This document shows positions 1,037 through 23,900 of a stretch of DNA of 64,000 nucleotides, piece after piece. Under the pieces are notes generated by a model. That model was not told the origin of the DNA, ran no database searches, and saw only the letters and a program-made list of their open reading frames with translations. Where the stretch lies: the NCBI RefSeq assembly GCF_000379825.1, contig NZ_KB903814.1, positions 729,536-793,535 on the forward strand. Reading direction: 5' to 3'. A program made the translations under genes and the position numbers. Each line of letters starts with the position of its first letter. Within the stretch, counting starts at the first letter, position 1. Origin of the DNA: Longispora albida DSM 44784. Lineage in GTDB: Bacteria; Actinomycetota; Actinomycetes; Mycobacteriales; Micromonosporaceae.

Positions 1037-1729
1037 TCACTCCTCGATCGCGCCGCCGGTCCGGCGGAGGTGCTGGCGGAAGGTGTAGCCGGGGTCGGCC
1101 TCCCGGAGCTTGAGGTACTCGGCGAAGCCGGTCTGCTCCCGCAGAGTACGGCCCGCGCGGATCTGGGCGGCCTGGTCCCGCTCGGTCAGCCAGATCGCGC
1201 GGGCCACCGCCAGCACCTCCCCCGCGCCGGCGGCCGGGACGAAGAGCACGCCGTCGGCGTCGGCGAACACGACATCGGCATCGCTGACCAGATGCTCGCC
1301 GACCCGGGCGGTCACCAGCGCCTCCGGCTCGCGGTCGCCGACCCGGAGCGGCCCGGGCGGGAAGCTGCCCATGCTGAACACCGGCAGCCCGATCTCGGCG
1401 AGTTCCGGGGTGTCCCGGTGCAGGCCCCAGACCACGATCCCCGCCAGGCCTGCCGCCTGGGCCTCCAGGACGGCGAGGTCGCCTATGCACGCCTCGTCCG
1501 TACGCCCGCCGTTGTCGATCACGAGCACGTCGCCCGGCTCGGCCAGCCCGAACGCCTCCAGGAACACGTCGACGCTGCCGTAGTGCCGCACGGGCCGCGC
1601 CCTGCCAGCCACCCGGCTCCCCGCGACGACAGCCCCGAGACCCGGGGGCGCCGCGCGCAGCGGCACTCCACTCCGGACACACGCGTCCGCGACCAGCGGG
1701 GTCGACAACTCACCGAAACCACTCAGCAT
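1037..1729 (-). CDS. RraA-like aldolase (HMG/CHA aldolase family)
   Basis: The 230-aa protein belongs to the RraA/dimethylmenaquinone methyltransferase-like family. Characterised members are class II pyruvate aldolases acting on 4-hydroxy-4-methyl-2-oxoglutarate, or RNase E inhibitors. Visible family features are the N-terminal FGELSTPLVADACVRSG, the nucleotide-fold-like DVLVIDNGGRTDEACIGD, the Arg-Asp metal/substrate motif in WGLHRDTPELAE, and DADGVLFVP near residue 170. The ATG at 1729 is preferred over longer upstream frames because family similarity begins there and TAGGGT lies seven bases upstream (1737-1742), a leaderless arrangement. It is divergent from the HAD gene with 48 bp between them. 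The exact substrate is unknown; a regulatory RraA role is less likely in actinomycetes. Confidence 0.82.
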   Translation of the reverse strand: MLSGFGELSTPLVADACVRSGVPLRAAPPGLGAVVAGSRVAGRARPVRHYGSVDVFLEAFGLAEPGDVLVIDNGGRTDEACIGDLAVLEAQAAGLAGIVVWGLHRDTPELAEIGLPVFSMGSFPPGPLRVGDREPEALVTARVGEHLVSDADVVFADADGVLFVPAAGAGEVLAVARAIWLTERDQAAQIRAGRTLREQTGFAEYLKLREADPGYTFRQHLRRTGGAIEE

Positions 1730-1777
1730 GCCCACCACCCTATGCCCGCGCGGCCCCCGTCTGGCTAGCCTCTTCTC
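1730..1777. promoter_or_regulatory. Back-to-back leaderless promoters
   Basis: The 48-bp divergent spacer carries a -10-like TAGGGT for the minus-strand RraA gene (1737-1742, seven bases before its ATG). It also carries TAGCCT for the plus-strand HAD gene (1766-1771, six bases before its ATG). No Shine-Dalgarno sequence precedes either start. The -35 elements would have to overlap the opposite promoter, so the two genes may compete for polymerase. Confidence 0.55.
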
Positions 1778-2368
1778 ATGATCATTGCTGTGCCGGACGG
1801 CGAGTTCGCCGCCTACCTGTTCGACTGCGACGGCACGATCGCCGACTCGATGCCCCTGCACTACCAGGCCTGGCAGGGCGTGCTCGGCGCGTGGGGCTGC
1901 GAGTTCAGCGAGGAGACCTTCTACGCCTGGGGCGGCGTGCCCGTCGCCGACATCATCCGCAGGCTGAACAGCGAGCAGAGCCTCGCGATGCCGGTGGCGG
2001 AGGTCGTCGCCCACCAGGAGGCGCTGTACCGGGAGATGCTGCCCAGCCTCACCACAGTGCCGGGCGTACGCGAGCACATCGAGGCCGCCCACGGGAAGCT
2101 GCCGCTGGCCGTCGTGTCCGGAAGCACCCGTGAGTCGGTGACAGCCTCACTGGACGTGCTGGGCGTACTCGACCGGTTCGACGTGCTGGTGTGTGCCGGG
2201 GACTACGAGCGGGCCAAGCCAGCACCGGATGCCTTCCTGCTCGCGGCGCGGCTGCTCGGGGTGACGGCCGGGTCGTGCCTGGTCTTCGAGGACACCAGCT
2301 TCGGCGTCGCGGCCGCGACGGCTGCCGGGATGGCCTCGGTCCGGGTACCGGCGCCGTGGGAGCGGTAG
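1778..2368 (+). CDS. HAD-superfamily phosphatase, subfamily IA (beta-phosphoglucomutase-like)
   Basis: The 196-aa HAD hydrolase has the nucleophile motif DCDGTIADS (Asp nucleophile and Asp+2 both present) at about residue 16. An alpha-helical cap follows (residues 20-90), then motif II Ser in VVSGSTRES and motif III/IV in ERAKPAPDAFLLAA and CLVFEDTSFGVAAA. The length and cap are those of beta-phosphoglucomutase or fructose-1-phosphatase-like enzymes (YqaB group), so a small sugar phosphate is the likely substrate. The start codon lies six bases after TAGCCT, consistent with a leaderless mRNA. The adjacent RraA-like aldolase gives no firm pathway. Confidence 0.85.
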   Translation: MIIAVPDGEFAAYLFDCDGTIADSMPLHYQAWQGVLGAWGCEFSEETFYAWGGVPVADIIRRLNSEQSLAMPVAEVVAHQEALYREMLPSLTTVPGVREHIEAAHGKLPLAVVSGSTRESVTASLDVLGVLDRFDVLVCAGDYERAKPAPDAFLLAARLLGVTAGSCLVFEDTSFGVAAATAAGMASVRVPAPWER

Positions 2369-2389
2369 CGGTTTCCCAGGCACGTTGGC

Positions 2390-3058
2390 CTAGGCGTTGA
2401 GCAGCCTCCAGTTGCCCTCGGAGACGACTTCGATCTTCCCGCCGGTCACCTTGATGGCCGTCTCGCAGTCGATCGCGTACGCCTGGTGTGGAATCGTGGT
2501 GGCCCACTGCTCGGCGTGCGCCATGGTGTTCTCCGCCATGCCCGGGTAGTCCACGTGCGGGAAGATCGAGAAGCCGACCATGCCGAGCGTGGTGTCGCCG
2601 CCCCCTGGCGGGCTCCAGCGGACGAAGTCCTTCCCGATCCTCGGGGTCATCACCATGCTCCCGGCACTCAGGCCGACGTAGACGGTGTCGTTTAGCTCCG
2701 GCAGGAGGCTGGCCAGGCCAGACTCGCGCATCCAGTGACACAGGTACATGGGGTCGCCGCCCTCGACCAGCAGCGCGTCGGCCTCCCGGACCAGGGGCAC
2801 CCACAGGTCCTCTCCGGCGCTGGGCAGGGCCGTCAGCTCCAGCACGCCGAGGGACTTCCAGCCCAGCTGGGCCATCGGCGCCCGATCCTCCAGCCCGCTG
2901 ATCGCCCGGTGGGCCCGGACAGCTCCGCCCCGCTGGGCGTGCATCGCCGTCGGGACGATCAGGGCGCCGCACTCGGCGACCGGCTTGCCCAGCAGCTCGA
3001 CCAGCGCGCCGTGGATGCTCGGGTTCCTGACGCCGGAGTCTGTGAGAAGAAGCTTCAT
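2390..3058 (-). CDS. pepE: Peptidase E-like (S51) alpha-aspartyl dipeptidase
   Basis: The 222-aa protein begins MKLLLTDSGVRNPSI and has the S51 nucleophile elbow GLSAGSMVM at about residue 130, the FVEGGDP-like segment LLVEGGDPMYL at about 98, and an aspartate/His-rich second half. Family members are cytosolic serine peptidases with a Ser-His-Glu/Asp triad that cleave dipeptides beginning with aspartate. The length (about 220-230 aa) is normal. The ATG at 3058 is preceded, six bases away, by TAATCT (3065-3070) and by no Shine-Dalgarno site, so the mRNA is probably leaderless. That -10 sequence overlaps the target duplication of the MITE at 3069-3237, meaning the element sits directly in the promoter region. 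Confidence 0.85.
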   Translation of the reverse strand: MKLLLTDSGVRNPSIHGALVELLGKPVAECGALIVPTAMHAQRGGAVRAHRAISGLEDRAPMAQLGWKSLGVLELTALPSAGEDLWVPLVREADALLVEGGDPMYLCHWMRESGLASLLPELNDTVYVGLSAGSMVMTPRIGKDFVRWSPPGGGDTTLGMVGFSIFPHVDYPGMAENTMAHAEQWATTIPHQAYAIDCETAIKVTGGKIEVVSEGNWRLLNA

Positions 3059-3068
3059 CGCCCGAGAT

Positions 3069-3237
3069 TAAGAGGTCCTAACTCAATGACTGGCGGCGCT
3101 CTGGCGGCTCCAGAAGACGACCGGACTGCGCAGAATTCGAGGGCGGATACAACACCGGTATCCGCCCTCGAATTCTGCTTGCCGCTCGCCTCCTGGACCT
3201 CGCCACAGCACCACCGCCATTAAGTTAGGACCTCTAA
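3069..3237. mobile_element. MITE-like element with 17-bp TIRs and TAA target duplication
   Basis: A 163-bp element (3072-3234) is bounded by terminal inverted repeats GAGGTCCTAACTCAATG (3072-3088) and its complement at 3218-3234, which differ at one base. A direct TAA flanks each end (3069-3071 and 3235-3237), as expected for a 3-bp target duplication. It contains no coding sequence but a perfect 21-bp-arm palindrome. Target sites of TNA type with 3-bp duplications are known for IS5-family transposons, so mobilisation by such a transposase is a reasonable inference. No transposase lies in the window. Confidence 0.8.
3130..3178. repeat. Perfect 21-bp inverted repeat inside the MITE
   Basis: The arms at 3130-3150 and 3158-3178 are exact complements over 21 bases around a 7-base loop (AACACCG). 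RNA from either strand would fold into a very stable hairpin. It may act as a bidirectional terminator between peptidase E and the LAL regulator, or it may be an internal feature of the element. There is no U-tract. Confidence 0.85.
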
Positions 3238-3265
3238 ACCGGGCGTCTGACAATCCGGGCCGGAA

Positions 3266-6190
3266 CTACTCGGCGTAGTCGCCGTTCAGGCCGGCGGCGT
3301 AGTCGCAGAGCGCGGCCCTGTCGGTCAGGTCCAGTTTGGACAGCAGGCTCGCGACGTGCTTCTCCGCTGTCCGCGCCGAGATGTAGAGCCGCTGCCCGAT
3401 CTCCTGGTTGCCGAGCCGCCCGCCCAGCAGCACCAGCACCTCGTACTCGCGCACCGTCACCCCCACCTCCCGCAGTGCTGGCGGCACGGCCTCCCAGCCC
3501 CGGCGCTGCTGGAACACCGAGGCGCCGGCCCGGCGAAGGGTGGCGTGGCAGGCCTGCGCGATGGCAGGCAGGCCGGAACGGTGGAAGTACTCGGCGGCGC
3601 CGCGCGCCCAGTGCACCGGCGAACCCCAGCCATCGTCGAGAGCCGGGTCGGCGATCAGCCGGAGGATCAGGTGCCGGGCCAGCGGGTACACGGCGGCGGC
3701 CTCCTGGGCCTGTGCCGCCGCCACGCCGGAGGAGGTCGGGTCGCCGTCGCGGCCGTGGAGGACGGCCTTGGCCGCGAGCACGAACTGCTTGTTCCACCTC
3801 AGCTTGGCCTGTGGCGTACCGGCGACGGCCTCGTAGTCCGCCCAGCCGCCGTCCCCCGAGGCGACCCGCAGCAGCAGGCCCAGCCCGTACGTGCCGGCCA
3901 GGCTGTACGGGGTCGGCATCCGCCGGTCGCGTTCCCTGACGCGCTCCAGCTCGGCCCGCGCCCGGGCCCGGTCCTCCTCCAGCAGCGAGCACACGGCCTC
4001 GGCCAGCCCCCACGCGACGGACAGGTAGTGGCTGTCCTCGCCGCCGGCCTCCAGCAGTTCCCCGATGCTGGCCTCCATCTCCTGGCGCCGGCCCCGGTGC
4101 GCGGCCGAGACCGCCGAGGCCAGGGACAGGTACCGGCTGACCTGACGCCGCTTCAGCCGCTCCGACAGCTCCCCGCACGGCTTCGCGAGCGCTTCGGCCT
4201 CCTCGTACTCCGCGTGCAGCACCGCGAGCATCGCCAGCAGGCTGTCGATGTCACACAGGGCCGGCAGCGCCCCGAGCCGCAGCGCCTCCTCCTTGGCCTG
4301 CCGGAGCCGGCCGGCCACGCCGTCGTTCAGCCAGTCGTTGGCGCCGAGGTAGTTGAATGCCGTGATCCGCCAGGCCGGCAGCCGGTGCTCCTCCGCGATG
4401 GCGAGCATCCGCTGGAAGTCCGCCTCGGACTCCGCGAGGCTGCGCGTCCGGGCGGCGATGCCGAGGACTTCGAGGGCCTGGCAGGCCACATCGGGCAGCG
4501 GCAGCCGTTCCGCGCCGGACAGCGCCCGCCTGGCCAGCGTCTCAGCCTGCCCCGAACGTGGGTCACCCGGCAGTTCCTGAAGAAGCCGGGCCTCGACGAC
4601 ATCGATCGGCGCGCCGCGTACCGGGTCGGCGTGCGCGCCGAGCGCCGCGCGGGCGGTGCCGACCTGGACCAGGCCGTCACGCCACCGGCCGCCAGCCACG
4701 GCGGCTTCCGCGAGCCGCGTGTGCAGGGCCGCGAGGCGCGCGCCGTCCAGCGTGCCCGCCAGCCCTTCCAGCTCCTTGCCGAGGTCGAGGGCCCGGTCGG
4801 TCTGGCCGGCCTCGGTGAGGGCTGACAGCAGTGGTTCGAGCAGCTCGGCGCGCAGGGTCGGGCTGACCCACGAACCGTACAGGCCGCGCGCCTTCTCCAG
4901 CAGTGCCGCGGCCGAGGCCGCCGCGCCCGCCGACAGCGCACGGCGGCCGGCCTCGGCGAACAGGGCGGCCGCGGCCGGCTCGTCCCCGGTGAGCAGGCGG
5001 AGCTGGGCGAGCTGCTGGCACCAGTCGCCGGGCAGGTCGGGGTGGATGGCCTCCACGGCGACGGCCAGCCGGGCCGCCAGGCTGGCGCGTTCGGTGGGCA
5101 GGAGCGGCGACAGCAGCGCGTCAGCTGTCAGGGCGTGCCGGAACGCGTACCAGCCGCCACTGCCCGGCTCCGCCGCGATGAGCTGGGCGCTGACCGCCGC
5201 GCTGAGCAGCTGGCGGAGCAGCTCGTCGTCGGCGCCGATCGCGTGCTGGACGACGCGCAGGGAGAACCGCCGGCCCAGCGTCGCGGCCGTGCAGAGCATG
5301 CTGTGGCCCTGCTTGCCGAGCCGCTGGGCCCGCTCGGTGACACTGAGCACCACAGTGGACGGTAAGCCGGCGGCTGCGCTCCGGTCGAGCGTCCAGCCGG
5401 TCGCCCGGCGGACCAGATGACCACCCTCCACCATGCCGGACAGCAGCTCCTCGACGACGAACGGGTTACCGTCGCCGTGCTTGGCCAGCCGCTCGGTGAC
5501 GGCCGCCGGCACGGTGCTCTCCGGTGCCGCCAGGCAGTGCGCGACCATCGACGCCGTCTCGGCCTGGCTGAGCGGCTTGAGGTCCACGACCTGGGCCGCG
5601 CGCCGCCGGGCAGCCGACGCCGCGAGGCTGTCCATCGCCTCCGTGCCCGGCCTGCTGGTGGCCAGGAGAAGGATGCGGTGCCGGTCGAGGTTGTCGATCA
5701 GGTACTCGACGACGGCCAGGGTCTCCGGATCGGCGTCGTGCAGGTCCTCCAGGATCAGCACGCAGCCGGTGGCCCGGCTGACCACGGCCAGCAGGCGCAG
5801 GATCGACTCGGCCAGCACCAGCACGGAGTCGGCACCCGGCCCGCCGGGCTGCTCGCTCCACTCGGGAATGAGCCGGCCGAGCGCCGGGCGGTAGGGCAGG
5901 AGCTCGGCGCCGGGCACCATTCCGGTGATCCGGACGACGGACAGCATCGCCTCCGCCAGCGGCCGGAACGGCACCGGCGGGGCCGTCGTGCTGGTCCGGC
6001 CGGTGAACACCGGCATGCCGGCCTCGGCGGCGGTGGCGCGCAGCTCGGCGGCGAGCCGTGACTTGCCGATCCCGGCGTCGCCGAGCAGCAGGGTCGCCTG
6101 GCCCTCGCCGTCGCCGGCCGCCCGGAGTGCCGTGGCCAGCACGCGCAGCGGGAGGTCCCGCCCGACCAGGACCGGCGAAGTCAGCCTCAT
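3266..6190 (-). CDS. LAL-type LuxR-family transcriptional regulator
   Basis: The 974-aa protein has the layout of large ATP-binding regulators of the LuxR family. There is an N-terminal AAA-type ATPase with Walker A GDAGIGKS (about residue 38) and Walker B CVLILEDLHDAD (about residue 145). A long helical TPR-like middle (about 400-880) follows, with a C-terminal LuxR helix-turn-helix (TVREYEVLVLLGGRLGNQEI and following TAEKHVASLLSKL, about 905-965). Such proteins typically activate secondary-metabolite or sugar-catabolic genes. The ATG at 6190 is preceded by GGAG-containing sequence, and the gene starts 31 bp after the precursor-peptide stop on the same strand. It is therefore likely transcribed with the dehydratase and precursor genes and is a good candidate cluster regulator. 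Confidence 0.88.
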   Translation of the reverse strand: MRLTSPVLVGRDLPLRVLATALRAAGDGEGQATLLLGDAGIGKSRLAAELRATAAEAGMPVFTGRTSTTAPPVPFRPLAEAMLSVVRITGMVPGAELLPYRPALGRLIPEWSEQPGGPGADSVLVLAESILRLLAVVSRATGCVLILEDLHDADPETLAVVEYLIDNLDRHRILLLATSRPGTEAMDSLAASAARRRAAQVVDLKPLSQAETASMVAHCLAAPESTVPAAVTERLAKHGDGNPFVVEELLSGMVEGGHLVRRATGWTLDRSAAAGLPSTVVLSVTERAQRLGKQGHSMLCTAATLGRRFSLRVVQHAIGADDELLRQLLSAAVSAQLIAAEPGSGGWYAFRHALTADALLSPLLPTERASLAARLAVAVEAIHPDLPGDWCQQLAQLRLLTGDEPAAAALFAEAGRRALSAGAAASAAALLEKARGLYGSWVSPTLRAELLEPLLSALTEAGQTDRALDLGKELEGLAGTLDGARLAALHTRLAEAAVAGGRWRDGLVQVGTARAALGAHADPVRGAPIDVVEARLLQELPGDPRSGQAETLARRALSGAERLPLPDVACQALEVLGIAARTRSLAESEADFQRMLAIAEEHRLPAWRITAFNYLGANDWLNDGVAGRLRQAKEEALRLGALPALCDIDSLLAMLAVLHAEYEEAEALAKPCGELSERLKRRQVSRYLSLASAVSAAHRGRRQEMEASIGELLEAGGEDSHYLSVAWGLAEAVCSLLEEDRARARAELERVRERDRRMPTPYSLAGTYGLGLLLRVASGDGGWADYEAVAGTPQAKLRWNKQFVLAAKAVLHGRDGDPTSSGVAAAQAQEAAAVYPLARHLILRLIADPALDDGWGSPVHWARGAAEYFHRSGLPAIAQACHATLRRAGASVFQQRRGWEAVPPALREVGVTVREYEVLVLLGGRLGNQEIGQRLYISARTAEKHVASLLSKLDLTDRAALCDYAAGLNGDYAE

Positions 6191-6221: not shown

Positions 6222-6392
6222 TCATGCCACCAGGTCGGCCTCGAACTCGCCGAGGGCCACCGTGGTCTTCGACGTCGTGGTGATGTAGATGTCGGTCGCG
6301 CTCAGCTCGTCCAGCACGATCTCCCCCGCCGGGTGGTCAGCGGCACGGTACTCGGGGCTCTTCCATTCCCGTACCAGGTCATCGACGCTCAT
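6222..6392 (-). CDS. Cysteine-free mersacidin-type (class II-like) precursor peptide
   Basis: This 56-aa peptide has a leader typical of mersacidin/lichenicidin-type precursors: VREWKSPEYRAADHPAGE at residues 7-24, followed by an acidic segment IVLDELS. The putative core (from about residue 32) contains ITTTSKTTVALG, with Thr38, 39, 40, 43, 44 and Ser41 around a single Lys42. There is no cysteine in the whole peptide, so ordinary lanthionine rings are impossible. A perfect AAGGAGG lies before tandem ATG codons; the second (6392) has the better spacing. The start overlaps the end of the dehydratase gene by 14 bp, implying translational coupling. No GG or similar cleavage site is obvious, so the leader/core boundary is uncertain. 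An unmodified small protein is the alternative. Confidence 0.8.
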   Translation of the reverse strand: MSVDDLVREWKSPEYRAADHPAGEIVLDELSATDIYITTTSKTTVALGEFEADLVA

Positions 6393-8298
6393 CATATCCT
6401 CCTTGGGTGAGTGAACTGGTGATCAGATTCTCCTGAACCCGCCGGTCTCCGGGATGACAGGCAGCAACTTTCTGGCGTACCCGGTCCAAAGAGGACACAG
6501 GGTAGACCGCCGGCAGTGCGCACCCGGCTGCCGTCAGGTCACGGCTGCCGGGCCTCGTCGTGAACATCGGGACGTCGCCGGCCCACAGCTCGGCCAGCTC
6601 GTACGGCACCATCGGATCCCGGAAGCCGTCCGGGGCGGCGCGCAGGTGCGCGAGGACGCCGTCGCGGTCGAGCGCGTCGCGCAGCACGTCCGGGTGGGTG
6701 GACTCGTCGAGCAGCTCGGTGTAGACCCGGGTCGGCCGGAGCACCACCCTGGTCTCCGCCTCGGCGAAGGCTTCCAGCAGGCCGGCGAAGTGCGCGCGCT
6801 CCGCGCTGATCAGGTCGTACCCGGCCCGGAAGCCTTCCACCACCGCACCGGCGTGCGCACGCGGATCGGCCGCCCGGCCCCGTACGACCGGCTGGTTCTG
6901 GGCTCCGGCCGCGGTGAGGTGGGCGCGGACGATCCGCATCTCGTCCGTACCGGCACCGGCCACCACCGCCGACTTCACCGGGAGCCGTCCCCCGCCGGAG
7001 CCGCCGAGCCCGCTGATGTCGAGCGCCCCGCCGTCGCCGCGCAGGTACTCGGGCAGCAGGCCGGTGCGGCGGACCGTCCCCAGCGGATCGCCGGGGTGGT
7101 GGGGCGGATGGAAGAGGCCTTCGAGGTCGACCAGCACGGGCTGGTCCGCGCAGGCGATCACGTTCTCCAGGTGGAAGTCCACGCCTTCGAGCAGGTGCAC
7201 GAGCGCCAGCAGCACTCCGACCCGATGGTAGTACCGCGCGGCGCCGCTCCGGCACGGCCGGTGCCGCACATACCCGGCCCAGCCGTACCCTTCGCGGGCC
7301 AGCACGCCCGGCCTGAGCAGGTCCAGGCCGGGCAGGCGCTCGCTGAGCCAGCCGAGGAGCGTCCCGAAGTGGTACTGGACGTCAAGCGGCCGGGGCTTGT
7401 AGACGACGCGCTCGCCGGAGGCGAAGGTCAGCACGGCGACCGTCCGGCCGCCCCGGTGCGGGTCACCGTGCGCGGCGACGGCCGTCAGGGGGCCTGGATC
7501 GCGCCCGCCGAGCAGAGTGTCCACAATGGCCGGACGATCAGCGGCAAGCCGGGCCATCAGCTCGTTCTGCGCGGCGGCCGAACGGGCGGCGGCCTGGGTG
7601 AGCAGCCTGCCCAGTACCGGATACTCGCCCAGCAGCGCCGCCAGCGCGCCCGGCTGGCTCAGGTACCGGATGAAACTCGCGAAGCGATCCGCGGAGCTGG
7701 CACCGGACAGCTGGCCGGTGACCCGCAGGACCTGGAGCTCCAGCACCAGCGTGCGGGCGGCGATCCGGGTGAGCTGGCCGGACAGCGCGCGGGTGAAGCC
7801 CGGCAGCAGGCCGGGCGGCGTGCCGGGCGTGACCTGGGTGGCAGCGTCAGCGACGAAGGGCCACAGGACGGCCTGGAAGCCGGCCCGCCAGCCGGACCCG
7901 GCAGGTGGCGGGGCTGGGTCGCTCGACAGGATCCTGGTCAGGTCCGCCGCCCACCGAGGCTGCGGCGCCCTGGCCGCCAGCGCGCCGGCCGGCTCGGCGA
8001 ACAGCGCGAGGACCTCGGCCTCCGGGCCCTGCCCGGCGCCGGCGATCCGCGCCCAGCGGTTGAGGCGGAGCCTGGACCTGGTCTCCTCGGCGGGATCCGG
8101 CAGCACCGGGCCCGGCAGTGCCCGCCGCTCGGCCAGGCTCAGCCCCCGCGCCCACGCCGCCCATGCCACCGCCCCCCGTTGCGCAGAGTGAGCATCGTGC
8201 GCCCTGTGCGTCACGCCCGCCACAACCCCTCCGCTCAGACCAGCAGAGCCGTCCGGGCCGCACCCGTGTGCGCCCATCGAACGCCCCAGTGTGTCCAT
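6379..8298 (-). CDS. LanM-type lanthipeptide dehydratase lacking the cyclase domain
   Basis: The 639-aa protein matches only the N-terminal dehydratase half (DUF4135) of class II lanthipeptide synthetases, which normally run to about 1000 residues. Residues that carry phosphotransfer and elimination in LanM enzymes are visible: GDPH followed by GGR, Lys in VVYKPRP, Asp-x-His-x-x-Asn in VDFHLENV, Asp in VLVDLEGLF, and Arg/Thr in LRPTRVYTELL. The protein stops just after the conserved end of this domain (QENLITSSL), and no LanC-like Cys-Cys-Gly/His zinc motif follows in any frame. It therefore looks like a genuine stand-alone dehydratase rather than a frameshift. The start is uncertain: the ATG at 8298 has only a weak GGA upstream. 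It should phosphorylate and dehydrate Ser/Thr of the adjoining precursor. Confidence 0.85.
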   Translation of the reverse strand: MDTLGRSMGAHGCGPDGSAGLSGGVVAGVTHRAHDAHSAQRGAVAWAAWARGLSLAERRALPGPVLPDPAEETRSRLRLNRWARIAGAGQGPEAEVLALFAEPAGALAARAPQPRWAADLTRILSSDPAPPPAGSGWRAGFQAVLWPFVADAATQVTPGTPPGLLPGFTRALSGQLTRIAARTLVLELQVLRVTGQLSGASSADRFASFIRYLSQPGALAALLGEYPVLGRLLTQAAARSAAAQNELMARLAADRPAIVDTLLGGRDPGPLTAVAAHGDPHRGGRTVAVLTFASGERVVYKPRPLDVQYHFGTLLGWLSERLPGLDLLRPGVLAREGYGWAGYVRHRPCRSGAARYYHRVGVLLALVHLLEGVDFHLENVIACADQPVLVDLEGLFHPPHHPGDPLGTVRRTGLLPEYLRGDGGALDISGLGGSGGGRLPVKSAVVAGAGTDEMRIVRAHLTAAGAQNQPVVRGRAADPRAHAGAVVEGFRAGYDLISAERAHFAGLLEAFAEAETRVVLRPTRVYTELLDESTHPDVLRDALDRDGVLAHLRAAPDGFRDPMVPYELAELWAGDVPMFTTRPGSRDLTAAGCALPAVYPVSSLDRVRQKVAACHPGDRRVQENLITSSLTQGGYDERR

Positions 8299-11998: not shown

Positions 11999-14900
11999 TC
12001 ACCTGACCGTCTCGCGCCGTACCCAGCCGGCCAGCACGAGCATGATGGCGCCCGCCAGTACAGCCATGCCGCCCGCGGTGAGCAGGAGGAGCGGGCGGCT
12101 GCCGGTGACGGGGATCGGGCCGGGTACCGGGGCCGGCCCCGGGGGCACCGGACGCGGGGCCGGCGGCGGGGGCATCGCGCAGGCCTCCGAGTGGAGCGGG
12201 ATGCCGTTCAGGGCGGCGGTTGCCCGGTTGCGCAGCCCGGTACCGGATTCGCCGTCGTCCAGGGTGCAGTCGGCGGCCCTGGGGTCGATAGCGGCCGGGG
12301 TCTTGATCCGTACCGAGACCGTCCACACGTGCCGGGCTGCCGGGCTGATGGCGACCCTCTTGGCGATGGTGAGCACTGTCCGGCCGTCCCATGCCGGGTC
12401 GGGCGACGCCGGACCGTCCACTGTGGCCGACACGATCTGCACGCCCGTGCCGTAGGTCAGCTCGTCGGCTACCAGGTAGTTCCCGGGCCCGGCACCCCGG
12501 TTGGCCACCTCGATCTCGTACGTCACGTCGTGGGTGTCCGCGACGCCCGGCACGGGCCGGGTTCCGGTGTGGCGCTTGGTCACGGCGATGCTGGGCAGCG
12601 GGGCGCACGCCTCGCTGACCTGCTGGAGGTCGCCGGTCAGCGCGGCCCGGTTGAGGAGGCCGGTACCCCGCTCGCCCGGGTCGAGCGTGCAGTCGGTGAC
12701 CTTGGGCGGGAGGCCAGCCGGGAGGCTGGCCCGCACGGTCACCTGGTAGACGTGGGTGGTCCGGCCGGGGATCGCCTGGCCGGTCGCGATCTGGGACTGG
12801 GTCACGCCGTTCCAGTCCGGGCGCGTGGTGACGCCGTCTGGCTTGCCGGTGACGGCGGCAGACTGGATCGTGACTCCCGCGCCGTAGGCCAGGGTGTCGT
12901 CAACGCCGTAGGCTCCGGCGGCGGTGCCGAGATTGATGACGGCGATCTCGTAGACGATCTCGTGCAGGCCGGGGCTGGCGGCCAGTGGCGTGACCGAGAC
13001 CGGCTTCTTGGCGATCGTGATGAACGGGTACGGGGCGCAGGCGTCCTGCCGGTCCGTGCGCCCGTTGACGGTCAGCGTGGCGATGTTCAGGGTTCCGGTG
13101 CCGGTCTCGCCCGGGTCGAGGGTGCAGTCAGTGGTGCTCGCCTGCACCGTTCCGCTTCCCTGCCGGAGGGTGACGGTGATGGCCCACAGGTGGACGGTCC
13201 CGGCTGCGAGGACCTGGTTGTTCGCCAGGATCGGCTGTCCCTGGCCGTTCCAGCCGCCGGGGCTGGGCGTGACGCCGGCGGGCGGGGTCGCGGTCGCTGC
13301 CGTGATCGCCGCACCGGGGCCGAAGGCGAGCTTGTCCGCGAGGGCGTAAATGCCGGCTCCGGCTCCGGTGTTGGAGACAGTGATCTCGTACCGCACCTCG
13401 TAGTTCCCGCCGCCGACCGAGGCCGGCTCGCTGGTGACCCGCTTGGCGAAGGCGAAGCTGGGCGTCGGCGCGCAGGCCGAGGTGGTGGTGGTCCGGCCGT
13501 CACGGGTGACGCTGGCCTCGTTGAGCAGCCCGGTACCGGGCTCGCCGGCCGCGAGAGTGCAGTCGGTGGCAGCGGTGTCCGGCGCTGTGGTGGGGATGGT
13601 GGCGACGACGGTCATCCGGTACGTGTGGGTCGTGCCGGCCGGAAGCGGCAGGGCGGTGCCGATCGTGGTGTCGGTGGTGCCGTTCCAGCGTCGGTTCCAG
13701 GCGACTCCGCCGGGGCCGGTGGTGATGGCGGCGGAGTTGACAGTGATGCCTGCGCCGAAGCGGAGCCGGTCGGAGGCGTCGTACGGGACCGGCCCGCCGC
13801 CGGGGTTGCTGACGGCCAGCTCGTACACGATCTCGTAAGTGCCGTCGCCCTTCGGCGAGCTGGACACGATCCGCTTCGGGTCGACAACAATCGTGCCAAC
13901 CGGCCGGCAGGCTGAGGCGTCCACAGTGGAACCATTGACGGTCAGCGTCGCGTCGTTGCGCGTTCCGGTGCCGGTTTCGCCGGTTGCGAGCGTGCAGTCA
14001 CCTGAGGTCGCGGTGATGGTAGCCGGGTCGGCCTTGTAGCGGACGGTCACTCGCCACACATGGCTGGTACCGGCCGCGATGGGCTGGGCCGTGGTGACGG
14101 CTGGCTGGGCGTTGCCGTCCCAGCCGGGCGTGACAGCCAGGCCGCCCGGGGTCACGTTCGCGATGGCCGGGGCGGGCTGGATCTGGACGCCGGCGCCGAA
14201 CCGCAGCCGGTCGGCCAGGTCGTAGCTGCCGTCTCCGGCCCCGCTGTTGCTGATGGCCAGGTCGTAGGTCAGGTCGAACGTGTCGTCCTGGCCCGCCACT
14301 GGCACCGGAGTCCCGGCAGTCTTGGTGAACGCGAGGCTCGGCGTCGGCCGGCACACCGACCTGGTGTCCGTGCGGGTGGCAGAGGTGAGGGTCGCGGAGT
14401 TGAGGAGGCCCGTGCCGGTCTCACTGCCGGTCAGCTCACAGTCCGTCGAGCCTGCGGCTGCTGAGATGGGGATGTTCGCGGTGACCGTGACCCGGTAGAC
14501 GTGTGTCGTGCTGGCAGCGATGGCCTGATCGGTGACGATGCGCGGCTGTGTGGTGCCGTCGAAGTCCGGTGCTGTCGTCACGCCCGCCGGGGTGGTGGTC
14601 ACGGCGACGGCGCTGATCGTGATGCCCTGGCCGTAGCGGAGCTGGTCAGTGAGGGTGTACGTGCCTGCGGCGCCCACGTTGCGGACGGTCAGCTCGTAGA
14701 CGAGCTCGACGTTCCCGTTGCCGCGCGGGGTCATCGATACCAGGGTCTTCGGGTCCTGGACGATGATGCCGATCGGTTCACACGCCTGCTGGGTGAGGGT
14801 TGCGCCGCTGGTGGTCAGTGCCGCCTCGTTGCGGGTACCGGTGCCGGGCTCGCCGGCGTCCAGCGCGCAGTCGAGTGCCGGGCCGGTGACGGTGGCCGGG

Positions 14901-17900
14901 TCGGCCTTGAGGCGGACGGTGACGGTCCAGCGGTGCGTGGCGCCGGCCGCGATCGGCCTGGCGGTCGCGAGGGCTGGCTGGCTCGTGCCGTTCCAGCCGG
15001 GCTCGGAGCCGGGTGCCTGGGCGGACAAGATCGTCAGGCCGGTACCGAAACGCGGCCGGTCGGCCAGGTCGTACGCGCCGGCTCCGGCTCCGCCATTGAC
15101 GACGGCGACGGTGTACGTGACGTCGTACGTGTCATCGGCTCCCGCGACCCGGACGATGCCCTCGGAGGTCTTCGACAGGCTCAGGCTCGGGGTCGGCGCG
15201 CACGCCTCGCTGCCGAGCGTCCGGCCGTCGGTGGTGAGCGTCGCCTGGTTGAGCAGCCCCGTACCGGTTTCGCCGGCGCTGAGGGCGCAGTCGGTGGAGG
15301 TCGGGTCGGGCACCGAGGCCGGGACTCGTGCGGTGACCGTGATCCGGTACGTGTGCTGGGTGCCGCCGGGCAGGGACTGGCCGGTGACGAGGTTCCCGGT
15401 ACCGGACCAGGCCGGGTTCACCGTCACGCCTGCCGGGGACGCGGACACGGCTGCCGACTCGACGGTGATGCCCTGGCCGAAGCGGAGACTGTCGTCCAGT
15501 GTGTACAGAGCTGCGGCCGAGCCCCGGTTGGCGGCCACGAGGTCGTACACGAGCACACGGCGGCCGTCCGTACCGGGCGTGTCGGAGGCGATCGTCTTCG
15601 ACAGGGTGACTGCGGCTACCGGCGCGCAGGCCGACTGGTCGAGAGGCAGGCCGTTGATGGTCAGCCGGGCATCGTTGCGGGTACCGGTGCCGGATTCGCC
15701 GGCGTCGAGCGCGCAGTCCGTGGCGGTGACAGTCGCCGTGGAGTCCACTGTGTACCACACGGTGATCGTCCAGGTGTGCCTCGTACCGGCCTCGATGAGC
15801 TGGCCGGCGACGATGCCCGGCACGGCGCGGCCGTTCCAGGCGGGGTTGACGGTCAGGCTGCCCGGAGTGGTGTTGGCGGCTGTCGCGGACGTGATCGTCA
15901 CGCCCGTGCCGAAGCGGAGGGTGTCGGTCAGGTCGTACGTGCCCTCGCCCGCGCCGTCGTTCGCCACGCGCAGCTCGTAGGTGACCTGGTAGCCGCCGGC
16001 CACGGGTGCCGGTGGCTCCGTGATCACCTTGCCGAACGTAACGCTGGGCGTTTCCCGGCACGCGCGGTGGATCTCGGTACCGCCGGCGGTCGTGGTCGTG
16101 GCTTCGTTCATGAGACCGGTGCCGGTCTCGCCGGCGTCGAGGGTGCAGTCGGTCGCGGTGCGGGCCGGGCTGCTGGCCGGGACGGCGGCGATGATCGTGA
16201 CCCGGTACGTGTGCGTGGTGCTGGCCGGAATCTCCTGGCCGGTGACGAGGGTGGCCTGGTCGCGGCCGTTCCAGGCCGGTGAGGCCGTCACGCCGGCCGG
16301 GGCGGTCACCGTGGCGGAGACGATCGTGATGGCCGGGTCGTAGCGGAGCCGGTCATCGAGGCTGTACGTGGTCGCCGCCCCGCCGTTGGTGACGGTGACG
16401 TCGTAGACAACCGTCCACTGCCCGTTACCGGAGGGAGCCGCCGAGACGGTGGTCTTCGTGGTGCCGACGGCCGTCACTGGTACGCAGGCGTCCTTCGTGA
16501 ACTGGGTGCCGTTGATGGTCAGGGTCATCACGTTCCGGGTACCGGTCCCGGATTCGCCAGCCGCGAGAGCGCAGTCGGCCGAAGCGGCAGTGATCGTGGC
16601 CTTGTCGACGGTGTAGCGGACGGTCACCGTCCACACGTGCAGTGCCCCGGCCGCGAGCGGCTGCCCGGTCACCACCTGCTGCTGCCCTGTGCCGTTCCAG
16701 CCTGCGACCGGCGTCAGCCCGCCCGGCGTGGTGTTGACGACCGCCGGAGCAGGCTGCACCGCGACCCCTGTGCCGTAGGTGAGCCGGTCGGCCAGGTCGT
16801 ACGTGCCCCCAGCAGCGCCGTTGTTCTGCACCCGGAGTTCGTAGGTCAGGTTGAACGTGTCCGGCGAGCCCGCGACCGGGGTCGGCCCGGCCGAGACGAG
16901 CTTCGCGTACTCGAAGCTCGGCGTCTGCTCGCACGCGGTCGCCGTGGCTGTGCCAGCGTCTGTGGCCAGCGTGGCCGAGTTCAGCAGGCCGGTACCCGTC
17001 TCGCCGGGCTCCAGCGTGCAGTTCGTGCTCTGCGACGTGGGAGCTGTCAGCGGGACGAGCACGGTCGCGGTGATCTGGTACCGGTGCTCAGCCCCGCCAG
17101 CCAGCGCCTGATCAGTGACGATCCGCGTGTCGCCGGCTCCGTTCCAGCTGACCGAAGGCGCGACACCGCCGGTGAGGGCCGGGTTCCCCCGCACCGTGAT
17201 GCCCGCGCCGAACTGGAACGTGTCGTCGAGGGTGTAGTCACCTGCCCCTGCGCCACGGTTGGTGACGACGACCTCGTAGCTGACTGCCCACGTGCCGTTC
17301 CCGGCCGGGGCCGCCGACACGAGGCGCTTGGTGTGGCTGATCGCGGCGACCGGCGCGCAGGCAGCCGCGCTGGCGGTCTGACCATTGCTGACCAGAACCG
17401 CCTCGTTGCGCGTTCCGGTACCGGTCTCTCCGCTGTCGACAGTGCAGTCCGTGGAGGCGGGGGTGGCTGTGGCCTGGTCGACGCCGAACCGGACCGTCAC
17501 GGTCCAGGTGTGCCCGGTGCCCGGCGCGAGGGCCTGGCCCGTGGCGATGACCGGCTGCGCGCCGCCGTTCCAGCCAGCCGCCGGAGTGAGGCTCCCGGGG
17601 ACCGTGTTGGCGACAGCGGCGGACAGGACTGCGAGCCCCGTCCCGTAGCGCAGGGTGTCGCTCAGGTCGTAGGTACCGGCCCCGGCCCCGGAGTTGGTGA
17701 CCCGCAGCTCGTAGGTGAGTTCGCGGACGCCTGGCTGGCCGGGTACGACGGCAGGCTGCTTGGTGATCGTCTTCGTCAGCGCGATGCTCGGTGCCGGTGC
17801 GCACGCCGAGCCGTTGGTGACCTGCCCTGCGACGGTGAGGGCCGAGGCGTTGAGGAAGCCGGTACCGGACTCGCCGGCCGCCAGTGTGCAGTCGGTGCTC

Positions 17901-20900
17901 GCGGCGGTCATCGACTGGGGCACGGCGACGGTGGCAGTGATCTGGTACGTGTGCGTGGTCGCCCCGGCGATCGGCTGATCGGTGACGATGCGCTGGTCGG
18001 TAGCACCGTTCCAGGCCGGGCTGGGCGTGACGCCTGCGGTGCCCGCCGACACCGAACGGCTCTGGACAGTGATGCCCGTGCCGAAACGGAGCTGGTCATC
18101 GAGGGTGTAGCTGCCGGACCCCGCGCCCGCGTTCGTGACTGTCAGCTCGTAGGCCAGCGCGTACGTGCCATTACCGGCCGGTGTGGCCGACACGAGCCGC
18201 TTGGTGTGGCTGATCGCGGGCGTCGCGGCACAGGCGTTCGCGTCGGTGGTGAGGCCGTTGCTGATCAGCGTCGCCTCGTTGAGCGTCCCGGTACCGGACT
18301 CGCCGCTGGAGAGGGTGCAGTCCGTGGAGGTCTGCGTCGCGGTGGAGGTGTCCACCCGGTACTGAACGGTCACCGTCCACACGTGAGCCGTGGCCGCGCC
18401 GAGGGCGGTCCCCGTGCTGACGGCGGTCTGTGTCGTGCCGTTCCAGCCGGGTACCGGAGGCAGCGTGCCTGGTGCTGTGTTCGTCACCAGCGCGGACAGC
18501 ACCGTGACGCCGGTACCGAACTTGAGCGTGTCGACCAGGTCGTAGGTCCCGGCGCCGGCACCGGCGTTGGCGACCCGGAGCGCGTAGGTCATCTGGTACA
18601 CACCGGGCTGCCCGGCGACGGGTGCCGGCTGGGCGGAGATCGACTTCGTGAACGCGATGCTCGGCGTCGGAGCGCACGCCGTCCGGGTCTGCGCCGGCCC
18701 CACTGCCGTCATGGTGGACTGGTTGAGCAGCCCGGTACCGTTCTCCCCGCTGTCGAGCACGCAGTCGGCGAGGGCACCCGTGGTGGCCAGCGGCACGGCT
18801 GCGGTCGCGGTGACCTGGTACGTGTGCGAGGCCCCAGCCGCGATCGGCTGGTTCGTGACGACCCGGATGTCCGAGCCGCCGTTCCACGTCCCGCTGGGCG
18901 TGACACCCGCCGCGCTGGTCGTCACCTGCGCGCCGGACACCGCGATGCCGGCGCCGAAACGAAGCTGATCGTCCAGTGTGTACAGACCGGCGGCACCGGT
19001 GTTCGTCACCACGATCTGGTACACCACGGTCTGCCTGCCTCCGCCGGCCGGAGTCACCGACACCACTCGTTTCGTGTGGGAGACGGCGGGCAGCGCGACC
19101 GGTGCGCAGTCGTTCGCAGTGAGCGTGTGGCCGTTGGTGGTGAGGGTGGCCTCGTTGCGCGTGCCGGTACCGGTCTCGCCAGCGTCCAGGGTGCAGTTGG
19201 CGGCGGTCGTGGTGATGACGGACTGGTCGATGCGATACCGGACGGACACCGTCCACACCTGGCTCGTGCGGCCGGGAATGGCGTGGCCGGACGCGACGAC
19301 CGGCTGGGCCTGGCCGTTCCAGGTGCCGGAACCGGGCGGCAGCGGGGTCGTCGCCGGCGCGCTCACCGAGGCCGAGACGACGCTGACGCCGGTGCCGTAC
19401 CTGAGCACGTCCGCCAGGTCGTAGCCACCGGCCCCGTAGCCGGAGTTGACGACGCGGACCTCGTACTGGATGTCGTAGACCCCCGGCTGGCCAGCGACCG
19501 GCACGGGCTGGGCGCTGACGGCCTTCGTGAGCGCGATGCTCGGCACCGTCGCGCAGTCCGTCTGCGCTGACGGGCGGCCCGCGACCGTGAGTGTCGCGAC
19601 GTTGAGGAACCCTGTCCCCGCCTGGCCCGGGGACAGCGTGCAGTTCGTGTCCCCGCTCGCCATCGCCGGCGGCACGTCGGCCGTCACGGTGATCTGGTAC
19701 GTGTGCGTCACGCCTCCGTCGATCGCCTGGCCGGTGACGATCCGCTGGCTGGCAGCACCGTTCCAGTCCGGGCTGGGCGTGACACCTGGCGCGCTGGTCG
19801 CCACGGACCGGCTCCGGACGGTGATGCCCTGGCCGAAGCGGAGCTGGTCGTCCAGGGAGTACTCGCCTTCGGCCGAGCCGGCGTTCCTGACTGCCACCTC
19901 GTAGGTCACGGTGTAGGTGCCGTTGCCCGCCGGTGTCACCGAGGTCAGCCGCTTGACGTGGACGATCGAGGCGGTCTCGGCACAGGCGTTCGCGTCTTCC
20001 GTCAGGCCGTTGCTGATCACCGTGGCCTCGTTGCGCGTACCTGTACCGGTCTCCCCTGCCGCCAGCGTGCAGTCCGTGGACGCGTCCGTCGCGACCGACG
20101 TGTCCACGCTGTACCTGACCAGCACGGACCACGTATGGACGTCCTCGGCGTCGATCGCGGCACCCGTGGCGACTGTCGTCTGCGTCCGGCCGTTCCAGCC
20201 AGGGGTAGCGGTCAGCGTTCCGGGCGTGGTGTTCTCGGCGCGCGTCTCGACCACGGTGAGCCCCGCACCGAGCCTCAGCGTGTCGGTCAGGTCGTAGGTG
20301 GTGGCTCCCGCGCCCGTGTTGGCGACCTCGATGGTGTAGCCGATCACGTAGACCCCGGGCTGGTCTGGCACCGCGACGGGAGCGGAGGTGACACGTTTCG
20401 TGATCGTCAGGCTGGACACGGGCGCGCAGGCCGTCCGGGTCTGGGCCGGCCCGACGGCGGTCATGGTGGACTGGTTCAGGAGGCCCGTGCCCGCTTCACC
20501 GATGTCGAGTGTGCAGTCGGTGGCCCTGTCCGGTACGCCGGACAGCGGGACCGACGCGGTCGCGGTGATCGTGAACGTGTGCGTCGCTCCGGCATCGATC
20601 GGCTGGCTGGTCACGATCCGGGTGCCGGTGCTGCCGTTCCACGACGCGGAAGGTGTGACGCCTGCTGCGGTTGTCGTCGCCGACTGGCTGACGACGGTGA
20701 TGCCCTGGCCGAACCGCAGCTGGTCGTCGAGGGTGTACGTGCCGGCGGCCCCGCCGTTCGTGACCGTGACCTCGTAGACCACGGTCTGCTGGCCGGCCCC
20801 CGCCGGCGTCGCCGAGACCAGGCGCTTCGTGTGCGAGATGGCTGGCAGGGCGACGGGCGCGCAGGCGTCGTCCGGGGCGGTGAGGCCGTTTGCCGTCAGG

Positions 20901-23900
20901 GCCGTCTCGTTGCGGGTACCGGTACCGGACTCGCTGTCGTCGAGCGTGCAGTCGGCAGAGGCGGCGGTGATGATGGACTGGTCGATCCGGTACCGGGCGG
21001 TGACCGTCCAGACGTGGCTCTCCCCGGCGGCGATGGCGCCACCGGACACGATGGTCGCCTGCGACTGGCCGTTCCAGCCGGCCGCCGGGGTCAGCGTGCC
21101 AGGCGTCGTGTTGGCCACCGAGGCGGACTGCACGGCGATGCCCGTGCCGTAGCGCAGCACGTCAGCCAGGTCGTACGTGCCAGAACCCGCGCCGGAGTTG
21201 ACGACCCTCAGCTGGTACTGGATATCGAAGACTCCAGGCTGGCCAGCGACCGGCGCTGGCTGGGCAGCGACGGTCTTGGTGATCTCGATGCTCGGGACCG
21301 GGCCGCAGGCGGACTGGGTGACCTGCTGCCCAGCCGTGCTCAGCGTCGACGTGTTGCGGAATCCGGTGCCGGACTCGCCACTGTCCACAGTGCAGTTGGT
21401 CGCGGCGGCAGCCAGCGAGAGCGGAACCTGTGCGGTGACGGTGACCCGGAAGGTGTGCGTCGCACCGCCGGTGATGAGCTTGCCGGCGATGACCCGCTGA
21501 TCGCCTGTGCCGTTCCACGCCGGGCTCGGGCTGACGCCGGACGTGGAGCTGGAGACGGCAGCCGACGAAACCGTGATGCCCGCGCCGAAGGCGAGCTGGT
21601 CGTCAAGGGTGTAGGTCCCCGCAGCCGTGCCGGAGTTGGTGACGTCGATGTCGTAGAGCACCGTGTAGGTGCCGTTGCCAGCTGGCGTGGCCGAGACCAG
21701 CCGCTTCGTGTGCGAGATCGATGGGACCTCGGCACAGGCGTCTGCGCTGGCTGTCAGGCCGTTGCTGATGATGGTGGTCTCGTTCCGTGTACCCGTGCCC
21801 TGCTCCCCCGCCGCGACCGAGCAGTCGGTGGAGGCGGCCGTCGCCTGTGCCGGATCGACCCGGAACTGCACCGTCACCGTCCACACGTGACTGGTACCGG
21901 CCGCGAGAGCCTGACCCGTCGCGACAGTGGTCTGGGTCCGGCCATTCCAGCCTGCGGTACCGGTCAGGGTGCCGGGAGTGGTGTTCGCCGCCGACGCGGA
22001 CACGACGCTGACGCCCGTCCCGTACCTGAGCACGTCGACCAGGTCGTACGTGCCAGCGCCCGCGCCGGAGTTGGTGGCGGAGAGCTGGTAGCTCACCTGG
22101 TACACGCCGGGCTGCCCGGCGACCGGGACCGGCTCGGCCGACACCCGCTTGGTGATCGCGATGCTCGGCGTCGGGGCGCACGCGGTCCGCGTCTCAGCCG
22201 GGCCGAAGGCGGTCAGCGTGGACTGGTTGAGGAGGCCGGTACCGCTCTCTCCACTGTCGACAGTGCAGTCGGTGGCCGTTGACGTGGCCGACAGCGGCAC
22301 GGCTGCGGTCACCGTGATCTGGTACGTGTGCGTGGCACCGGCTGCGAGAGCCTGATCGGTGACGATGCGGGGATCGGTGCCGCCGTCCCATGCAGGGCTG
22401 GGCGTGACACCTGCGGGACTAGTGGTCACCCGGGCTGCGGCGACGGAGATCCCGTCCCCGAAGCGCAACCGGTCGTCCAGCGTGTACCGGCCGTCGGCCC
22501 CGGTGTTCGTCACGACCAGCTCGTAGACGGCCGTCTGGTTGCCGCCCCCGGCCGGAGTCACCGACACGAGCCGCTTGGTGTGGGAGATGGCTGGCAGGGT
22601 GACCGGGGCGCACGCGCTGGCCGAGGCCTGCTGGCCGTTGACGGTCAGGGTGGTCTCGTTCCGGGTACCGGTGCCCGTCTCGCTGGCGTCCAGCGTGCAG
22701 TTGGCCGACGCGGCGGTGACCGTGGCCTGGTCGAGCCGGTACCGGACGGTGACCGTCCACGCCTGGCTCGAACCGCCGGTCAGCGAGGCCGCCGTGGCCA
22801 CGGCCTGCTGAGCCTGGCCGTTCCAGGCAGCCGATCCCGGGGCCGTGACGGCGGCCGACACGACAGTGATGCCCGTGCCGAATTTGAGCGCGTCGGTCAG
22901 GTTGTAGGTGACGGTACCGGTACCGGAGTTGACGACCTTCACCTCGTACTTCAGCTCGAACGTGCCCGGCTGGCCCGCGACCGGAGCCGGCTGCGCCGAG
23001 ACCGTTTTCGTGATCGCCACGCTGGGTGTCGTGGTGCACGCGTCGCGGACGGTGGACTGGCCTGCGGTGGCGAGCGTGGCCTCGTTCAGGAAACCGGTAC
23101 CCGTCTCGCCCGGGTCGAGATGGCAGTTCGTGGCGTTCGCGTTCGGGGCGGTCAGCGGGACGGCGGCCGTGACGGTGACCTGGTACGTGTGGCTGGCGCC
23201 GGCCGCGAGAGCCTGGTCGGTGACGATCCGGGTCGTCCCGGCACCGTTCCACGACGCGCTCGGCGTCACCCCGGCGGCGGTCGTGATGACCGACCGGGCC
23301 GAAATCGTGATGCCAGCGCCGAACCTGAACTGGTCGTCGAGGGTGTACGTCCCGGAAGCCCCGCCACTGTTGGTGACCACGACGTTGTACGTGAGCGTGT
23401 ACGTGCCGTCGCCGTTCGGGTTGGACGTGACGAGATACTTCGAGTGCGTGATCGCGGGCAGCGCGGCGCAGGCGTTCGCGGTCGCGGACTGGCCGTTGCT
23501 GGTGACGGTGCCTTCGTTGCGGGTGCCGGTACCAGTCTCGCCCGGCGCCAGGGTGCAGTCAGCGGAGGCGGCTGTGGTGGTGGCAACGTCCATGCGGTAC
23601 CGGACGGTCAGCGTCCACACGTGCGTGACCGGGCCTGCGGCGATGGCGATCCCCGAGGCGACCGATGGCTGGGCCTGGCCGTTCCAGTTCGCCGTGCCGG
23701 TCAGCGTGCCGGGTGCCGTGTTCGCGGCGGAGGCCGACACGACGCTGATCCCGGTACCCGGCTTGAGCACGTCCGTGAGGTTGTACGTGCCAGCCGCCGC
23801 GCCGGAGTTGGTGACGCTCAGCTCGTACTTCATGTCGTACACACCGGGCTGGCCCGCGACCGGAACCGGCTGCCCGGTAACGGCCTTCGCGATGGTGATG

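Follow-up and report, generated by a model that had tools for sequence, protein, structure and literature searches.

Gene Organization of the Locus

A 64,000-nt stretch of the genome of Longispora albida DSM 44784 (the window) carries, on its minus strand, three adjacent genes transcribed in the order dehydratase, peptide, regulator: a LanM-type dehydratase of 639 aa without a LanC cyclase domain (lanM, 6379-8298), a LanA-like, cysteine-free precursor peptide of 56 aa (lanA, 6222-6392), recognized as an open reading frame (ORF) and by alignment to an ortholog, and a LAL regulator of 974 aa (3266-6190). The end of lanM overlaps lanA by 14 nt, and the gap between lanA and the LAL gene is 31 nt. 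A longer, 57-aa version of the peptide ORF begins at 6395; the inner ATG, which yields the 56-aa form, is favored because a ribosome-binding site for the peptide gene, AAGGAGG, is present on the same strand at 6398-6404. Pfam assigned the regulator an N-terminal AAA_16 domain (E 2.6e-20) and a C-terminal GerE/LuxR helix-turn-helix (E 1.6e-7). The first-pass annotation of this DNA had described a two-gene system; lanM and lanA hold up as real genes, and the third member of the cassette, the 974-aa AAA-LuxR regulator, had been overlooked.

A LanM Dehydratase without a Cyclase Domain

The sole Pfam match of the 639-aa enzyme was DUF4135 (E 6.1e-111, profile positions 1-377 of 378), with no LanC, and the NCBIfam LanM profile TIGR03897 (438 bits) was matched only through its N-terminal half (profile positions 33-519 of 932). 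These profiles agree with the earlier description of an enzyme that stops at the boundary of the LanM dehydratase domain and has no fused cyclase, and the catalytic motifs named there are present. An AlphaFold model built on a 28-row alignment had a pLDDT of 88 and a pTM of 0.88, with residues 1-44 and 635-639 below 50; the reading of residues 1 to ∼44 is uncertain. In a Foldseek search of solved structures, LicM2 (E 2.3e-27) and CylM (E 5.4e-25) were the only matches with E ≤0.001. All 10 positions checked in an alignment to CylM are retained: CylM D252, H254, K274, D347, and H349 correspond to D279, H281, K301, D374, and H376 of the window enzyme, and N352, D364, E366, R506, and T512 to N379, D391, E393, R517, and T523. 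We take E366 to be, like the others, tied to phosphorylation or elimination; the remaining nine have been given roles in phosphorylation or phosphate elimination (PMC4550811).

Because DUF4135 is complete, the predicted fold confident, and the 10 CylM positions retained, a working kinase-eliminase is expected, and the gene encodes, as judged from sequence and model, a LanM dehydratase that is complete, probably active, and devoid of a LanC domain. Dehydration domains cut out of CylM, HalM2, and NukM dehydrate on their own (PMC10676384).

The Precursor Peptide

The window peptide has no Cys across its 57 codons and eight Ser/Thr C-terminal to the PAGE motif, within S31-T44, in agreement with the earlier description of a 56-aa, Cys-free precursor with a Thr/Ser-rich core; Lys42 is present where that description placed it. 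This composition supports the view that the peptide would be unable to form an intramolecular lanthionine. The leader (residues 1-24, MSV...WK.PEYR...HPAGE; 6321-6392, minus strand) ends at an estimated leader/core border. TIGR03898 (15.6 bits vs. a cut-off of 23.5; E 0.012) and DUF6229 (12.6 bits vs. 25; E 0.13) both matched the right region below their cut-offs. Of the 12 peptides known from the genus, nine were aligned, and W10, K11, P13, H20, P21, G23, and I25 are invariant among these nine.

Conservation in a Second Species

Conservation was assessed between two species of the genus, the window species and a second one (G001), which has the same three genes in the same order: one for a 694-aa dehydratase-only enzyme, one for a 57-aa peptide that overlaps the end of the first, and one for a LAL. 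The enzymes are 52% identical over 620 residues and end at the same place, the peptides share 25 of 54 aligned residues (46%), and the LALs are 63% identical; in a tree of 114 LanM dehydratase domains, the two dehydratase-only enzymes are sister branches with a support of 99. Since gene order, overlap, leader, and enzyme end point are common to both species, the arrangement is not due to chance, and since G001 keeps the same order and a dehydratase-only enzyme that ends alike, lanM is not a broken gene. From these comparisons, LanC was probably lost before the two species diverged, and the shortened form has been retained since. A frame-shifted or split LanC at the locus was also considered and ruled out, because the lanM stop lies inside the lanA overlap, the LAL gene follows within 31 nt, and the end point in G001 is identical.

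Peptide–Regulator Units in the Two Genomes

Further lanA genes were found by searching both genomes with the window peptide and then with a nine-row profile. Seven lanA peptides were found in the window genome at six lanA-LAL loci, two with a lanM (the window locus and a full-length triad at C2:846k) and four without (C2:493k, C24:281k with two peptides, C23:151k, and C11:23k); none of the four occurrences of DUF4135 in this genome lies at the four lanM-less loci. G001 has five lanA-LAL loci, one of them without lanM. Twelve close LALs, including that of the window, were recovered from the two genomes (at least 532 bits; next best 69.5), and lanA lies directly upstream of 11 of these, five without lanM; the remaining one, C2:446k, is also the most distant and lacks an upstream lanA. 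Because 11 of the 12 close LALs have an upstream lanA and five of those no lanM, the constant unit is peptide plus LAL. The first-pass annotation had mentioned neither the wider lanM-lanA-LAL family nor the lanM-less loci. The peptides of the lanM-less units are possible extra substrates of the dehydratase. One such locus (C11:19001-29000, positions 1417-5829) combines a Cys-free core, ...FEQITTVTGR, with a LAL and, by eye, a methyltransferase-like gene, and has no lanM.

Four of the six lanM-less sibling cores contain C-T-[TS] (YGCTTL, DYFCTTF, DLMDCTTF, and VVLCTSF); of the remaining two, one has DRCPCN and one is Cys-free. The corresponding place reads ITTTSK in the window peptide and LTTTTK in G001, the two dehydratase-only species. 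The TTTSK stretch of the window peptide (residues 38-42; 6267-6281, minus strand) was located by pairwise alignment, and its placing against the sibling CTT is partly by eye: MAFFT aligned the Thr of the G001 ortholog under the sibling Cys, and split the window peptide by gaps. The pattern is suggestive of a joint loss of Cys and cyclase in the dehydratase-only species.

A motif scan found no ABC ATPase in any of five genus triad regions of 20 kb each (one from the window genome, four from G001), and found one in all three other LanC-bearing regions of the window genome; the sole ABC ATPase in the window lies at 44.6 kb, ∼36 kb from the cassette. The lack of an ABC ATPase in the triad regions argues against a classical exported lantibiotic, and an unlinked exporter is possible.

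Cyclases and Dehydratase-Only Proteins Elsewhere

The window genome gave four LanC matches, three of them inside LanM frames of 967, 700, and 1114 aa; the fourth was weak (19 bits, or 31 with neighbors) and lies in a 905-aa frame, which is taken as a LanKC-like protein. A LanC encoded elsewhere, which the first-pass annotation had named as an outcome that would count against it, was thus not found as a lone gene in this genome.

A scan of named genomes with both enzymes as query yielded 126 relatives, and the best 80 of these 126 are all longer LanM frames, the shortest (788 aa) being cut by a contig end. No further dehydratase-only relative was found in the family scan (58 of 200 genomes matching at E ≤1e-30, up to six candidates scored per genome), in which the only other frame under 800 aa, of 574 aa, was the N-terminal part of a gene with the rest following, nor in the order scan (35 of 298 genomes matching at E ≤1e-60, up to four scored per genome); among plasmids, 186 records matched and none covered 80% of the query. 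The phylum scan, with matches in seven of 396 genomes, gave two distant DUF4135-only proteins, so that such proteins are not unique to the genus. One, of 481 aa (L135, 6616-11144), has TfuA and YcaO genes as neighbors, together with a small ORF, and this locus is a candidate thioamide-type locus for a ribosomally synthesized and post-translationally modified peptide (RiPP) with a stand-alone LanM dehydratase. The other, of 516 aa and without LanC (L134, 5519-7066), lies near two genes that look aminotransferase-like by eye. Within the clade, these scans gave no dehydratase-only enzyme other than those of the window and G001.

Distribution and Diversity of Related Loci

Gene surroundings were compared across 74 loci: the window, the five triad regions of the genus (L125-L129), and 68 named loci with a length of 12 kb or more. 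In 71 of these, the lanM stop is followed at 153-825 nt, on the same strand, by a LAL belonging to one family; none follows in L042, L043, and L046. In the 114-row tree, the label of an absent LAL is uninformative for whole-genome loci with only 1.5 kb of flank. The window thus belongs among loci with the lanM-lanA-LAL order on one strand. In the other triads, LanM is full-length and the LAL is 43-49% identical to that of the window. A small leader-bearing ORF was recognized between lanM and LAL in 74 of 77 LAL-bearing loci, short ones included. A PAGE-like leader end is common among these triad peptides, and many also have a G.RA..LAG-like stretch, which is absent from the two dehydratase-only species.

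The 114 LanM rows comprise 76 with a LanC bearing zinc ligands, 32 with a LanC without recognizable ligands, two without LanC, and four cut by contig ends, ligands being called by motif (WCxG or HCxG, then CHG), so that some scattered zinc-less rows are possibly frame errors or divergent motifs. Precursors were picked automatically (85 recognized), with one mis-pick (L128, where the true ORF has a Cys), one doubtful pick (L065), and three loci unrecognized (L053, L063, and L114). No Cys occurs in the last 25 residues of 36 of 46 triad peptides whose LanM has zinc ligands (37 picks, that of L128 being wrong), and in all 26 whose LanM lacks them (the L065 pick being doubtful). Eight peptides tested against NCBIfam, six from triads, of the 85 recognized gave no match over cut-off.

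Among zinc-less triads of the Streptomycetaceae, 24 of the 25 tested (of 27) have a ...LAGxVLTSGxVITLSxxDTSVS core without Cys, preceded by GRNRACARAR, whose Cys is, in our reading, assigned to the leader; two from another branch (L054 and L103) were omitted from the pattern search, and their picked peptides also end without Cys. The search patterns were composed after inspection of the peptides. Differences per site at codon positions 1, 2, and 3 were 0.13, 0.07, and 0.32 for the 24 Streptomycetaceae peptides and 0.22, 0.12, and 0.38 for the Lentzea-type peptides (...SDTTVS, 18 of 18 given), and because of this pattern both groups are regarded as coding genes under constraint. The cyclase seems, from these sequences, to have fallen into disuse in relatives as well, in the zinc-less clade of the Streptomycetaceae, and ring closing seems to have been given up often in the group of peptide-plus-regulator cassettes.

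A recurrent cluster lies downstream of Streptomycetaceae zinc-less triads on the opposite strand (e.g., L059, L060, L075, L091, L106, L109, L116, and L118), with genes that look, by eye, MFS-like (in 18 of 25 triads), P450-like (15), and like nonribosomal peptide synthetases (8). Among the 114 LanM rows, Arg replaces the kinase Lys (CylM K274) in 23, mostly Lentzea-type (e.g., L052, L067, and L088); the only further substitution among the 10 positions affects T512, which is Ser or Pro in 11 rows.

Neighboring Genes

A Peptidase_S51 gene (Pfam E 9.5e-16; 2390-3058, minus strand) lies 3′ of the LAL gene on the same strand. Because G001 has a different gene there, on the opposite strand, it is not a conserved part of the cassette. 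Upstream, a 4696-aa ORF (11999-26089, minus strand) has many similar repeats by eye, followed by a proline-rich stretch and a membrane segment; GEVED was the sole Pfam domain found in it.

Comparison with Known Systems

Like the class II LanM enzymes CylM and LicM2, the window enzyme has the predicted dehydratase fold, the catalytic residues, and the domain boundary, and the leader of its peptide is, by a weak match, mersacidin-like; unlike theirs, the window system has no LanC, no Cys in the peptide, and no nearby ABC transporter by motif scan, and it has a LAL neighbor. Because a cyclase domain and Cys were both looked for and neither is there, the system is not classed as a lanthipeptide, and its enzyme would do the work of a class II lanthipeptide synthetase's N-terminal half. 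The LanMbC enzyme of dehydrazoles, CcaM, resembles it in that a DUF4135 enzyme yields dehydro residues without lanthionine, but CcaM depends on a zinc-independent cyclase domain fused to it and on YcaO-made azoles (PMC10676384). The window enzyme has no cyclase domain, and a Pfam scan limited to the five outside neighbor genes found no YcaO there, so that the window system is not regarded as a dehydrazole system.

The full-length lanM-lanA-LAL triads are closer, sharing gene order, a related LAL, PAGE-type leaders, and frequently Cys-free cores, but their LanM still ends in a LanC region, whether or not this has zinc ligands. The prochlorosin and cyanotin systems also have leader-sharing precursors remote from the enzyme, some with Cys-free cores (PMC7268733, PMC11251773), but there a full LanM with a reactive cyclase acts (PMC11251773); prochlorosins belong to the Nif11 family (PMC10783134), and pairing with a LAL is not mentioned in the available parts of PMC7268733 and PMC11251773. 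CA_C0082 of Clostridium acetobutylicum is likewise a LanM-type protein tied to a regulatory locus (Agr), but, unlike in the window enzyme, conserved catalytic residues are missing from it, as are other lanthipeptide genes from its locus, and the available part of the source mentions no LAL link (PMC10301443).

That a LanM partner lacks Cys is not in itself new, because PMC7268733, a large survey that discarded precursors without core Cys, mentions such cases: LanM-LanKC clusters there have Cys-free LanM-linked precursors. Among the open-access matches listed, none dealt with LanM-LAL triads, and none with a LanM that is dehydratase-only and paired with a Cys-free precursor. The group of peptide-plus-LAL cassettes is thus apparently undescribed, a provisional statement, since some of its loci may be covered by a survey from 2015 of actinobacterial clusters resembling those of lanthipeptides.

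Proposed Function and Alternatives

The reading we favor, and hold to be somewhat probable, is that of a maintained three-gene cassette in which a stand-alone dehydratase would make a thioether-free, linear dehydropeptide with a functional tie to the LAL. The dehydratase would bind the leader of the neighboring peptide, phosphorylate Ser/Thr within S31-T44, and eliminate the phosphate to give up to eight dehydroalanine or dehydrobutyrine (Dha/Dhb) residues. Since neither a cyclase domain nor Cys is present, the product would be a dehydropeptide without lanthionine, most likely linear, and, to go by gene order, may be a signal or effector for the downstream LAL, not an exported lantibiotic. That dehydration happens, and on the window peptide, we infer from sequence. 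In a broader form, which we consider possible but doubtful, lanA-LAL pairs would be a family of RiPP signal/receptor modules of the Actinomycetota in which each LAL is a dedicated intracellular sensor of its own dehydrated peptide, few LanMs are shared among the several pairs of a genome, and thioethers have been abandoned at least twice, once through loss of the zinc ligands and once through loss of the whole LanC.

Several observations weigh against the favored reading. The link to the LAL comes from gene order and the absence of a transporter from motif scans, by which five of 80 named loci do have a flanking ABC ATPase. The dehydratase-only form was found in two species only, and the peptide of the G001 ortholog has one Cys, as its second-last residue (...TECG), so that a strictly Cys-free pairing is limited to one species. 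The first-pass annotation had held that homologs with a core Cys would speak against it; one such homolog now exists, with its Cys away from the position where the sibling peptides bear theirs. Stand-alone sufficiency is not guaranteed either, because the dehydration domain of CcaM is inactive without its cyclase domain (PMC10676384). G001 has seven LanC matches, one of them in a 447-aa frame that appears to stand alone and lies at a distance of 1.3 Mb, and the full-length LanMs of both genomes could act in trans.

The last point bears on an alternative that we consider unlikely, namely that the dehydratase serves, perhaps in addition, the Cys-bearing peptides of the lanM-less loci, whose rings would then be closed by the full-length LanM at a distance of 110 kb or by a different LanC. 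The window genome has five lanA at four further loci and only four DUF4135 loci, none of them there, the leaders are alike across the lanA peptides, and four of the five lanM-less cores of this genome have Cys; nevertheless, the dehydratase gene and the peptide gene next to it overlap, the two are kept together in two species, and the full-length LanM alone could serve the other peptides. It is improbable that the enzyme only phosphorylates or only binds the peptide as a regulator. Such a role has a precedent in CA_C0082, the LanM-like effector of Agr signaling in C. acetobutylicum, and the window LanM is likewise tied to a regulator gene, but CA_C0082 and its kin lack conserved catalytic residues (PMC10301443), whereas the window enzyme retains all 10 positions, including R506 and T512 (CylM numbering), which are needed for elimination.

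A ring closed without a thioether, by attack of Lys42 or another nucleophile on Dha/Dhb to give a lysinoalanine-like or other closure, appears highly unlikely. The case for Lys42 is TTT[ST]K, which is common to the window and G001 peptides, and noursin offers an example of a nitrogen nucleophile, with His attacking Dhb (PMC10880069); no ring-forming candidate was found among the five outside neighbors scanned, no dedicated search having been made, and closing a ring between Lys and dehydro residues that all adjoin one another would be sterically awkward. We give least credence to a lantibiotic cluster in decay, its cyclase and Cys having been lost neutrally. Both species do retain full-length paralog triads with Cys peptides, so that the function could be redundant, but frames, catalytic residues, ribosome sites, and the overlap are intact in two species at 52% identity, and the lanM-lanA overlap and the short gap before the LAL gene leave no room for a LanC remnant. 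Nonsynonymous divergence (dN) is also below synonymous divergence (dS) in all three window-G001 pairs (dN/dS 0.43/0.77 for lanM, 0.29/0.81 for LAL, and 0.43/0.96 for lanA), although dS cannot be relied on at such divergence and GC content, which tempers this support for a maintained cassette.

Implications

Should the favored reading be true, lanthipeptide surveys that drop Cys-free cores, as one did, can miss this group (PMC7268733). A stand-alone dehydratase would be ready for making Dha/Dhb peptides, and across a large group of actinobacteria, LanM-type dehydration would itself be the goal. LAL regulators are common in antibiotic clusters and, to our knowledge, mostly without known ligands; the sensing of ribosomal peptides by LALs would become testable.

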